A stretch of 6,449 nucleotides of DNA from Pseudomonadota bacterium (GTDB lineage: Bacteria > Pseudomonadota > Gammaproteobacteria > Burkholderiales > Ferrovaceae), in NCBI GenBank assembly GCA_021828745.1, contig JAJZDE010000073.1, forward strand, positions 1 to 6,449. Reading direction: 5' to 3'. Position 1 is the first letter of the stretch. Each line of letters begins with the position of its first letter. Shown here piece after piece: positions 2,775-6,402 of this stretch. Under the pieces are notes generated by a model. It had not been told where the DNA came from, made no database searches, and saw only the letters and a program-made list of their open reading frames with translations. The position numbers and the translations under genes were made by a program.

Positions 2775-4010
2775 ATGCACGTTCTCCTTGTCGATGATTC
2801 GCGCGCGACATCGCTGCCGATTCAGCGATTCATGGAACAGCAGGGTCACGAAGTGACCTATGTCCAGAATGGTCGCCTGGCCGTCGAGGCCTACCAGGCG
2901 CGGGTGCCCGATCTGGTGCTGATGGATGTGATCATGCCTGAAATGGATGGGGTGGAGGCCACCCGACGGATCAAGGCCATGACAGGGGCGCGCTGGGTTC
3001 CGGTGATGATCATGACCTCCCTGTCGGCCAAGGAAGAAATCGTGTCCACTCTGGATGCCGGCGCCGACGATTATCTCATCAAGCCCGTGGTGTTCGAAGT
3101 GCTGGAGGCGCGCATGCGTTGCATGCAGCGTATCGCCACCTTGCAGGACAGTCTTTTTGCCATTCTGGACAATGCCTTCGAAGCCATCATTACCACCGAT
3201 GAGGCAGGTGTGGTGCAAAGTTATAACAAGTCTGCAGAAAAGATCTTTGGGTATCCTGCGACTCATATGGTGGGGGAAAAGGTGTCTCGTTTGATTCCGG
3301 AAGGAGGGGGAAGCATACCCCATCAATGGGGAGGGATCTCCACGGCACAGGGCGTGCAGAACGAACGGGTTCTGGGCTTGCGGATGTCGGGAGAGGTTTT
3401 TCCCATGAGGGTGGCTTTGACGGAAGTGAAACGTCAGCAAGGTAACCTGATCATCGGTATGGTTCGGGATGTCTCGGAAGAAGAAGCGGCGCGCCAACGC
3501 ATCGATTTTCTGGCATTGCACGACTCCCTGACCGGTTTGCCCAACCGTCCCCATTTTCACGATGTTCACGGACGTCTGCACGGGCAGGGCCGGAGGTACA
3601 GCCTGTTTTTTCTGGACCTGGATGGGTTCAAGCCGATCAACGATACCCTGCACCACGAGGCGGGAGATCAGGCGCTGGTGATCGTGGCCGGGCGTTTGCG
3701 GGAGGTGGTCGGTAAAACAGGATTTGTGGCCCGTCTCGGGGGCGATGAATTTGTGGTTCTCTCCACGGCCGCCCTGGCCGAGGAAGAGTCCTTGAAGTTG
3801 GGGGCCCACTTGATCGAAGCGATTTCTCAACCCATGCTTCTGAATCGGCAGATTTGTCGTTTGGGGGCCAGCGTGGGAGCGGCATTGTTCCCGCTGCATG
3901 GCACGACCACCAATGAGTTGCTGCTGGTGGCAGACCGGGCCATGTATCAGGCCAAGCGTTCGGGCAAGGGAAAGACCTGTCTGGCCGAAGCGGTGCGGGC
4001 GTTCGTCTGA
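2775..4010 (+). CDS. response regulator with PAS and GGDEF domains (probable diguanylate cyclase)
   Basis: This 411-residue cytoplasmic protein is predicted to make c-di-GMP from two GTP under phosphorelay control. An N-terminal receiver domain (about 1-120) has the acidic pair Asp7-Asp8, phosphoacceptor Asp51 in [11 protein letters not shown], switch Thr81 and Lys103 in LIKPVV. A PAS domain (about 122-235) follows, with [15 protein letters not shown] and the strand [15 protein letters not shown] leading into the linker. The GGDEF domain (about 244-405) starts at [15 protein letters not shown] and has the metal and substrate motifs [10 protein letters not shown] (281-290) and an intact GGDEF at 322-326. 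The inhibitory I-site RxxD, expected at 313-316, reads GKTG, so product feedback through this site is probably absent. No EAL domain or partner histidine kinase is present in the window. Its TGA overlaps the queC ATG as TGATG, so it is likely co-transcribed with queCDE. Confidence 0.93.
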
Positions 4011-4711
4011 TGTCAGAGCGAAACGCCGTCATTCTGTTGAGCGGGGGCCTGGATTCGGCTACTGTACTGGCGATGGCGCGCCAACAGAACTTTGGGGTGT
4101 ACGCCATGAGTTTTGCCTACGGTCAACGTCACGCGCATGAACTGGCGTGCGCCCGGCGTCTCGCCCTTCAACCAGGGGTGATCGAGCATTCAGTGGTCAA
4201 TATCGACCTGCGTGCGATCGGGGGGTCGGCCCTGACGAGCACACAGGCGGTCCCCAAGGATCGCGACCTCGATCAGGCGCATGCCATTCCGGTGACCTAT
4301 GTGCCTGCCCGGAATACCATTTTCCTGTCCTTTGCGCTGGCGTGGGCCGAGGTGCTCGGGGTGTCGGACCTGTTCATCGGAGTCAATGCGCTGGACTACA
4401 GTGGTTACCCGGACTGTCGTCCGGAATATCTGAGCGCCTTTGAACGGATGGCCAACCTGGCGACTCGTCGGGCGGTCGAAGGAGCCCCGCTGACACTCCA
4501 TGCGCCGCTCCTGAATCTGACCAAGGCCGACATCATTCGGCAGGGCCTGGCCCTGGGCGTGGATTATGGTCTGACCACCAGTTGTTATGATCCGGGGCCG
4601 GTGGGGCAACCTTGCGGACATTGCGATGCCTGTCTGCTGCGGGCGCGCGGATTTGCCCAGGTGGGGGTGCCGGATCCTCTGGTGGTGCGCTACTCGGGGA
4701 TCACGGCATGA
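4010..4711 (+). CDS. queC: 7-cyano-7-deazaguanine (preQ0) synthase QueC
   Basis: QueC converts 7-carboxy-7-deazaguanine to preQ0 using ATP and ammonia in the cytoplasm. The protein is 233 residues, the normal length. It opens with the PP-loop ATP pyrophosphatase motif SGGLDS at 11-16, followed by family segments VPARN (98-102) and [14 protein letters not shown] (124-137). The zinc site near the C terminus has four cysteines: Cys192 in SCYDP, then Cys202, Cys205 and Cys208 in PCGHCDAC. No key residue is missing. The ATG at 4010 overlaps the GGDEF stop by one base and places the PP-loop at the usual distance from the N terminus. It overlaps the following queD gene as ATGA, consistent with a preQ0 operon. 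Confidence 0.97.
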
Positions 4712-5751
4712 AGGTTGGGGCGAACGAATCTGCTGGAGAACGCCATGACTGGCAGGCTCGTGGTTTCGAGGCTTCCCGACAGGTGCCCGGGGCGGCGGAC
4801 GCGCGTTTGCGAGGTCGTCACGGCCATAGTTTCCGGGTGGAGGTATGCCATCCGCTGCGTGATGAGAACCAGACCGGGCGATTGGGTGACCGGCTCGGCA
4901 ACGTGGTGGAACGGCTGGATTACCAGGACCTCGATTTGCTTTTCTCCCAACGGCATGACGCGGAGATCTGGAATTGGATCGAAAAGCATCTGGATCTGGC
5001 TCCGGGCAGTCACGGATGTCTGGCCTCAGGCCCCCGGCAGGGGGTGGTGCGCGATGCGGCAGGACGGTTGCATGGGTGGATGCGTGATCGTTTCGAGTCG
5101 GCACATTTTCTGCCCAATGTGCCCGCCGGACATAAATGCGGGCGTCTGCACGGACACGGATTCGAGGTCGTGTTGTTTTTTCCCTGGGAGGAAGGTCAGT
5201 CCGCATCGCTGATAACCCAATGGGAGAAGTTGCATGCCCGTTTGCATGGACGGTGTCTGAATGAACTGGGCGGTCTGGATATTCCCACCTCTGAAATTCT
5301 GGCCAGCTGGATCTGGTCCCGCTTGCAAGAGGGGGGGCAGGTACTGACCCAGGTCACGGTGTATGAAACCGCTTCCAGTGGAAGTTCTTTTGATGGCACC
5401 CGCTACCGCATCTGGAAAGAACAAAGTTTCGACAGCGCCCTGCGTTCCCCCGAGGGGGTGTTGTGGGGGCACACCTATCGCCTGCGCCTGGGGCTTTCTG
5501 CCCCTCTGGATGAAATGATGGGCTGGACCCAGGATTTTGGCGAGGTCAAACGTCTGTTCGACCCCCTGTACCGTGAACTGGATCACCAGTCGCTGCATGA
5601 CAAGGTCCCGGCAGGAACCACCCTGGCTTTGCTCGACTGGATCGTGGCACGCACCCGCCCCCTGCTGCCCGCCCTGGACCGACTGGATCTGTATGATACC
5701 CCCGGTTCGGGAAAGATCTGGACTTTACCTGTTTTCGGCCCCCTTCGATAA
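4708..5751 (+). CDS. queD: triple-domain QueD / 6-carboxytetrahydropterin synthase-like protein
   Basis: QueD makes 6-carboxy-5,6,7,8-tetrahydropterin from dihydroneopterin triphosphate. A usual QueD is about 120 residues; this chain is 347 and shows three PTPS-like units. Domain 1 (about 15-120) has HGHSF with His38 and His40, but Arg24 replaces the first zinc His, Leu34 the catalytic Cys, and Asp71-Tyr72 the Asp-His pair. Domain 2 (about 125-230) is closest to E. coli QueD: His133, His148 and His150 for zinc, Cys144 in [15 protein letters not shown] at 193-196 and Glu220 in VYET. However, His180-Gly181 replace Asp-His. Domain 3 (about 238-347) has WTQDFGEVK and an intact Asp292-His293 in LDHQSLHD, but Leu245 and Trp253 replace zinc histidines, there is no Cys, and Asp330 stands for Glu. 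Domains 2 and 3 together make one full set. The ATG at 4708 overlaps the queC stop as ATGA, eight bases after GGGG, and is preferred to an in-frame ATG at 4612 inside queC. Confidence 0.9.
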
Positions 5752-5754
5752 GCC

Positions 5755-6402
5755 ATGACGTACAGTGTCAAGGAGATCTTTCTGACTCTTCAGGGGGAGG
5801 GTTGCCATACCGGGCGTTCGGCCGTTTTTTGCCGTTTTGCCGGTTGTAATTTGTGGAGTGGTCGCAGGGAGGATCGTGCACAGGCACGTTGCCGTTTTTG
5901 CGACACGGATTTTTTGGGAACGGATGGCGCAGGCGGGGGCAAGTTTGATTCTGCCCCGGCCTTGGCGGATGCGATCGAAGGCTGCTGGAAGGATGGAGTG
6001 GTGGTGGAGGACAGAACCCGGCGCTGGGTGGTATTGACGGGCGGAGAACCTTTGTTGCAGGTGGATGAAGGTTTGATAGGAGCGCTGCATGAACGGGGGT
6101 TCGGGGTGGCTGTGGAAACCAACGGAACGGTGCTGCCCCCCTCGGGGATCGACTGGATCTGTGTCAGTCCCAAGGGCAAAGAGCCCTTGCAAGTGCTTGC
6201 GGGGGATGAGTTGAAATTGGTGTACCCCCAGACAGATTGCCCGCCGGAACGGTTCGTGATGCTGGATTTCCGTCATTTTCTGCTGCAACCGCTGGATGAA
6301 GGGGGGGATCGTCGCCATGAACAGGCTGCGTTGTCTTACTGTCGTTCACATCCGCGTTGGCAACTTTCCCTGCAGACCCATAAATGGCTGGGCATCCCCT
6401 GA
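5755..6402 (+). CDS. queE: 7-carboxy-7-deazaguanine synthase QueE (radical SAM)
   Basis: QueE is a radical SAM enzyme that rearranges 6-carboxytetrahydropterin, the QueD product, into 7-carboxy-7-deazaguanine, the QueC substrate. The protein is 215 residues, normal for the family. It has the N-terminal TLQGEG motif (11-16) and the 4Fe-4S ligands Cys31, Cys46 and Cys49. Their CX14CX2C spacing is a QueE subtype seen in proteobacteria, unlike the common CX3CX2C. The SAM-binding GGEP is at 96-99, ETNGT at 121-125, SPK at 138-140 and the C-terminal SLQTHKWLGIP at 205-215. It begins three bases after the queD stop with no clear Shine-Dalgarno, which fits translation coupled to queD. It is the last gene of the preQ0 set; all catalytic motifs appear intact. 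Confidence 0.96.
   Translation: MTYSVKEIFLTLQGEGCHTGRSAVFCRFAGCNLWSGRREDRAQARCRFCDTDFLGTDGAGGGKFDSAPALADAIEGCWKDGVVVEDRTRRWVVLTGGEPLLQVDEGLIGALHERGFGVAVETNGTVLPPSGIDWICVSPKGKEPLQVLAGDELKLVYPQTDCPPERFVMLDFRHFLLQPLDEGGDRRHEQAALSYCRSHPRWQLSLQTHKWLGIP

Follow-up and report, generated by a model that had tools for sequence, protein, structure and literature searches.

What kind of enzyme is a chain with three 6-pyruvoyl-tetrahydropterin synthase (PTPS)/QueD-like domains, none of which has a complete catalytic set? The question is raised by an open reading frame (ORF) at 4708..5751 (+) of a 6,449-nucleotide window, the whole stretch of DNA analysed here, from a Pseudomonadota bacterium of the Ferrovaceae (contig JAJZDE010000073.1, assembly GCA_021828745.1). 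The ORF is intact, running from its ATG at 4708 to the end of its stop codon at 5751, and encodes a product of 347 amino acids, annotated here as a three-domain QueD (6-carboxytetrahydropterin synthase). A first-pass annotation made from the sequence had proposed three PTPS/QueD-like units in this chain, and domain search and structure prediction agree: Pfam PTPS matches it in three stretches (total expectation value (E) 4.9e-29), and AlphaFold predicts three T-folds (bb-aa-bb units) in one chain with a predicted template-modelling score (pTM) of 0.90. PTPS/QueD homo-oligomers are expected to consist of single-domain subunits that each carry a full catalytic set; here there are three domains, none complete. 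We consider it very probable that the protein acts as QueD in the queuosine pathway and is a covalent pseudo-trimer, with one working site between domains 2 and 3 (D2 and D3).

The full set (three zinc histidines, Cys, Asp-His and Glu) is present in D2 and D3 jointly and in no single domain, and the residues that the first-pass annotation had assigned to the three domains were read correctly. D2 (5062..5400, + strand, as are all features below) holds, by homology, the first zinc ligand His133 (5104..5106), the catalytic Cys144 (5137..5139), the zinc ligands His148-Gly-His150 (5149..5157) and the pterin anchor Glu220 (5365..5367), with His180-Gly181 in place of Asp-His. D3 (residues 232-347; 5401..5748), a T-fold with the Asp-His half-site, contributes the putative catalytic pair Asp292-His293 (5581..5586), contains no Cys and reads Trp253-Gly-His255. 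Domain 1 (D1; residues 1-118; 4708..5061), likewise a T-fold, has His38-Gly-His40 (window 4819-4827) and Asp71-Tyr72, with Arg24 where the first zinc histidine would be; its loop matching the Cys144 loop of D2 lacks Cys, and Cys47 and Cys104 lie elsewhere in the domain. The counterparts of Glu220 are Ala106 in D1 and Asp330 in D3. In PTPS, the catalytic triad is divided, with Cys, Zn and Glu on one subunit and Asp-His on its neighbour; Burgisser (1995) reportedly described an intersubunit catalytic triad. If sites follow the ring in this way, three virtual sites can be drawn (D1 zinc/D2 Asp-His, D2 zinc/D3 Asp-His and D3 zinc/D1 Asp-His), and to judge from these residues D2 zinc/D3 Asp-His alone is intact.

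Conservation carries this assignment. We aligned 368 distinct three-domain relatives (239 proteins and 129 loci), leaving out P0002 (a 99% copy), P0005 (partial, <300 amino acids), exact duplicates and the split gene L166. The protein lists were the best 120 of 1086 and the best 120 of 2914 matches; 80 loci were the best 80 of 461, found with search patterns that included CGR[ML]HGHG, and 63 later loci came from a whole-protein hidden Markov model (30, 19 of 20, and 14), with 54 kept as distinct rows. His133, His142, Cys144, His148, His150, Glu196, Glu220, Asp292 and His293 were each present in 368/368; the choice of pattern may have favoured Cys144, His148 and His150 in the 80 loci, and Asp292-His293 occurs in neither pattern. 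Pseudogene decay is ruled out by this invariance of the composite residues. The place of the first zinc histidine holds Arg, Cys, Leu, Val or Ala in D1 (His absent from 367, with a gap in the remaining one) and mostly Leu, Val, Thr, Ile or Arg in D3 (His in 0/368), and a Cys anywhere in the catalytic loop is found in 33/368 for D1 and 17/368 for D3. The counterpart of Glu220 is also variable, being Gln (250), Arg (35), Trp (32), Asp (14), Ala (13) or others in D1 and Glu (246), Gln (57), Asp (35), Ala (13), Pro (9) or others in D3.

Asp-His is retained in the D1 of 26 relatives and the D2 of 73, and 295/368 lack it in D2; because those 73 still have it, loss of the D2 pair appears to differ by lineage. 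The WGH of D3 looks like a local trait of this protein, since 330/368 relatives retain HGH there. The three domains thus seem to be under unlike constraint, as expected from the use of one composite site, and the proposed handedness of that site (D2 with D3) rests on conservation. The complementary residue pattern noticed in the first pass is accordingly conserved rather than freely varying, and its idea that one of three sites was kept holds up; its opposition of divided labour to decay was a false choice, as one inter-domain site appears to be retained and parts of the other two to have decayed to varying degrees.

Alignment to known QueD proteins points the same way. When the single-domain QueD structure 2oba was aligned with the chain, its zinc/Cys part fell on D2, its Asp-His stretch on D3 and the remainder on D2, and the unimodular relative L085 gave the same mosaic against the family profile; E. 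coli QueD chains, unlike 2oba, aligned to D2 in one stretch. On this evidence, D2 and D3 jointly carry the content of one QueD subunit. Only PTPS was matched in Pfam and only QueD/PTPS models in NCBIfam, with no QueF domain found (E up to 1). The protein is likely a QueD by ancestry and function, and its architecture a new variant. The three-domain family is already in databases, where many members are named 6-carboxytetrahydropterin synthase; we found no description of the architecture in the open-access PMC literature, searched mostly as titles and abstracts, with subscription papers outside its scope.

The predicted structure and coevolution indirectly support closure of the chain into a single barrel, with D3 strand 4 paired with D1 strand 1. 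Known T-folds superpose on D2 and on D2 plus D3, and in the AlphaFold model consecutive units are joined, last strand to first, by linkers of 5 and 3 residues. The proposed ring-closing partners are D1 strand 1 (residues 11-25; 4738..4782) and D3 strand 4 (residues 334-339; 5707..5724), more than 300 residues apart. In a mean-field coupling analysis of the 368 sequences (effective number 179), the top-five coupling between the last strand of D3 and the first of D1 was reached by only 18 of 5000 randomly slid blocks. The strongest antiparallel ladder in D1 x D3 also lies at this strand pair, at i+j 350 (mean z 1.98; 1190 overlapping windows). Mapped by hand from the domain offsets, this register translates to roughly 236 at D1/D2 and roughly 461 at D2/D3; the D1/D2 junction scored best at 238 with 236 second (0.92), and by the same hand mapping the registers of the three junctions agree within about 2-4 residues.

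The genomic setting links the gene to the queuosine pathway. It overlaps by 4 bases with queC (4010..4711, +; TIGR00364, 197.2 bits against a cut-off of 150.3), and a 3-base gap lies between its stop and the start of queE (5755..6402, +), of the Cx14CxxC type (TIGR04508, 329.3 bits against a cut-off of 240), so that queC, queD and queE form a tight operon. The source genome (2.15 Mb, 99.5% complete), whose closest named relatives among the matches listed are Ferrovum, also encodes Tgt, QueF, FolE2 and QueA, and the genome search gave no match for FolE1. A separate canonical queD, raised in the first pass as a possible objection, was looked for throughout this genome, and no PTPS match fell outside 4708-5751; because the only PTPS matches lie in the three-domain ORF, that ORF is the sole candidate for the QueD step that the genome search produced.

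The architecture is widespread: of 399 genomes sampled within the order, 62 had three-domain members (E <= 1e-60; one split in two frames, one across two contigs), as did 19 of 369 sampled within the class, which rules out assembly error or chance fusion. In the class survey they were set apart by a wide gap (E <= 6.4e-101, the next match standing at 1.4e-42 and covering one domain). Named hosts include Ferrovum, Roseateles, Ramlibacter, Ideonella, Thiomonas, Marichromatium, Allochromatium, Thiothrix and Plasticicumulans. Among the 80 named loci, queE was nearby in 71, with Cx14CxxC in 68 of these, and queC in 46; flanks were short in 5 of the 9 loci without queE and 9 of the 34 without queC. 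Beside other PTPS loci of the order, QueE had the Cx14CxxC motif in 5/18 and lacked it in 13/18, against 68/71 beside three-domain QueD, and a functional or historical coupling of the two proteins is possible. A tree of single domains from 19 diverse members and 26 other PTPS sequences of the order (120 columns; Shimodaira–Hasegawa-like approximate likelihood-ratio test (SH-aLRT) without bootstrap) placed D1, D2 and D3 each on one side of a branch (SH-aLRT 99, 95 and 99), with the D2 stem shortest, 37 of 80 inner branches open and long D1 branches flagged. The tree would fit a single origin of the architecture; separate recruitment of domains in different lineages is not favoured, each domain lying on its own side of a branch. 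Two family members stand out in copy or frame: L166 (G319:C61:10000-14000), from a genome of the same family, has its gene in two open frames, covering profile positions 1-162 and 217-360, through either loss or an assembly fault, and the genomes of L044 (G412) and G102 each carry two three-domain copies.

We propose that one chain folds into three T-folds that form one closed barrel, as the model and coevolution suggest. D2 would provide the zinc ligands His133, His148 and His150, the catalytic Cys144 and the pterin anchor Glu220, with zinc and Glu220 holding the pterin; D3 would provide Asp292-His293 across the D2/D3 interface, as their invariance and the intersubunit triad of PTPS suggest; and the ring would be completed by D1. 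Head-to-head stacking of two such rings is probable, like that of two PTPS trimers, and the architecture was most likely inherited from a single origin, with the other two sites decaying. The first pass had credited D1 with only HGH and Asp71, which is accurate for this sequence, and had cast it as scaffolding, a role that the alignment does not establish as its only one: HGH is kept in 367/368, Glu21 in 361/368, Asp84 in 360/368 and Gly112 in 366/368. D1 HGH is near-invariant although the domain lacks the third zinc histidine. Because these residues are almost invariant despite the incomplete metal site, D1 might go beyond a mere scaffold, either as the third active-site wall in the partner ring or as a second, non-catalytic pterin/metal site that controls the working one; we regard either role as a tentative and rather unlikely addition.

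Several observations weigh against this proposal, in its geometry and in its identity as QueD. The ring-closing ladder, at 1.98, is barely ahead of rivals at 1.90 and 1.87, and the top register for the D2/D3 junction was i+j 465, with the matching 461 only fourth (0.91). Couplings between zinc loops and Asp-His stretches showed no clear preference for D2-D3: the best z values were 4.4, 5.7 and 3.4 for forward blocks (zinc loop with the Asp-His of the next domain) and 3.2, 3.3 and 5.5 for backward blocks, with 143-295 at 5.7 and 244 (D3)-179 (D2) at 5.5. The backward block of D3 loop with D2 Asp-His alone stood out (235/5000 slid blocks as high), and 1800/5000 came as high as the forward block of D2 loop with D3 Asp-His. 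Residues 143 and 295 seem to exclude each other's charge in one cluster of 158, where 3 of 53 members with a basic 143 also have a basic 295, compared with 53 of the 105 whose residue 143 is not basic; nearest-pair tests found this equalled at positions 109 and 240, and because these show a similar excess, shared ancestry explains it equally well. The catalytic residues themselves, being invariant, give zero coupling signal. Coevolution is also blind to whether pairing is within or between chains, and the D3 strand 4-D1 strand 1 coupling would look alike if D2 met the D3 of another chain, or if domains swapped in a larger or open assembly. Bimodular V. cholerae QueF does deviate from the T-fold ring (PMC5372742). 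We nevertheless judge a site between chains improbable, as all three units lie in one confidently predicted chain (pTM 0.90) and linkers of 5 and 3 residues leave neighbouring units hardly separable.

As to identity, the protein scores 88.4 bits against the NCBIfam QueD model TIGR03367, 0.85 below the equivalog cut-off of 89.25, and among 40 of the 80 genomes, of unstated completeness, surveyed for other PTPS genes, 10 had one or more additional PTPS matches, 1 had two three-domain copies, and 29 showed no other PTPS. The low score and the existence of further PTPS subfamilies, mentioned in PMC5041015, would suit a PTPS paralogue that is no longer active as QueD or acts at a different pterin step (folate/biopterin), its conserved residues being structural. 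The cut-off miss appears marginal, because all 10 relatives scanned, of 240 proteins, pass at 89.4 to 159.6 bits. PMC5041015 also gives CxxxHGH as the QueD signature, and it is present here as C144-G-R-L-H148-G-H150; together with the operon shared with queC and queE and the lack of a second PTPS match in this genome, this makes such a paralogue very unlikely. Less likely still is that D2 alone is the enzyme, forming ordinary trimers that borrow Asp-His from another D2 with D1 and D3 as hangers-on: the short D2 stem and the 73 relatives with D2 Asp-His fit this idea, but it has to reckon with the 295 without the pair, this protein included, and with D3 Asp-His in 368/368. We therefore return to the covalent pseudo-trimer with a D2/D3 site as the preferred reading.

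Further upstream in the window, a response regulator-PAS-GGDEF protein (2775-4010, +) lies immediately 5' of queC. Farther 5' is an overlapping gene pair (78-1304 and 1301-2647, both +), and NCBIfam matches neither product at E up to 1. In Pfam the first reaches only TPR_12, weakly and below cut-off (E 0.18); by eye it resembles an ATP-grasp ligase, and it weakly matches an S6-modification protein in PDB (E 0.58). The second has no Pfam match and by eye resembles a pyridoxal phosphate enzyme of aminotransferase class V (best PDB E 0.067). They are possibly an undescribed enzyme pair.

PTPS is a hexamer of two trimers stacked head to head, with six sites that each lie between three monomers (PMC7546909). 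With unimodular QueD and PTPS (E. coli QueD 4ntk/4ntm/4ntn; rat and human PTPS), the protein has in common the T-fold, zinc histidine triad, Cys, Glu, Asp-His and CxxxHGH, and with unimodular QueD the pathway step and operon partners; those enzymes have one domain per chain, whereas here one chain has three domains and one intact site. The closest precedent is bimodular QueF (E. coli, V. cholerae), which shares fused T-folds, the queuosine pathway and an interdomain site after duplication. According to PMC5372742, duplication left the QueF motif in one domain and Cys and Glu in the other, the parts rejoin in the interdomain site, and the bimodular enzyme is a dimer without a central tunnel. 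QueF has two domains, acts as a nitrile reductase and lacks the tunnel, whereas here there are three domains, another reaction and a predicted closed ring. Uricase, a tandem T-fold protein, has two T-folds side by side in one chain that superpose on D2 plus D3; it differs in having two domains, different chemistry and 7-11% identity (rows shown).

The case also bears on annotation: taken singly, no domain of this protein looks catalytic, and the whole falls 0.85 bits under the QueD cut-off. If the proposal is true, this is a natural example of a symmetric trimer that became a single chain, in which two of three sites were lost and the third was retained without exception. The number of sites that a ring enzyme requires would then be open to test, as would the reason why QueF and QueD, two enzymes of one pathway, took the same route.
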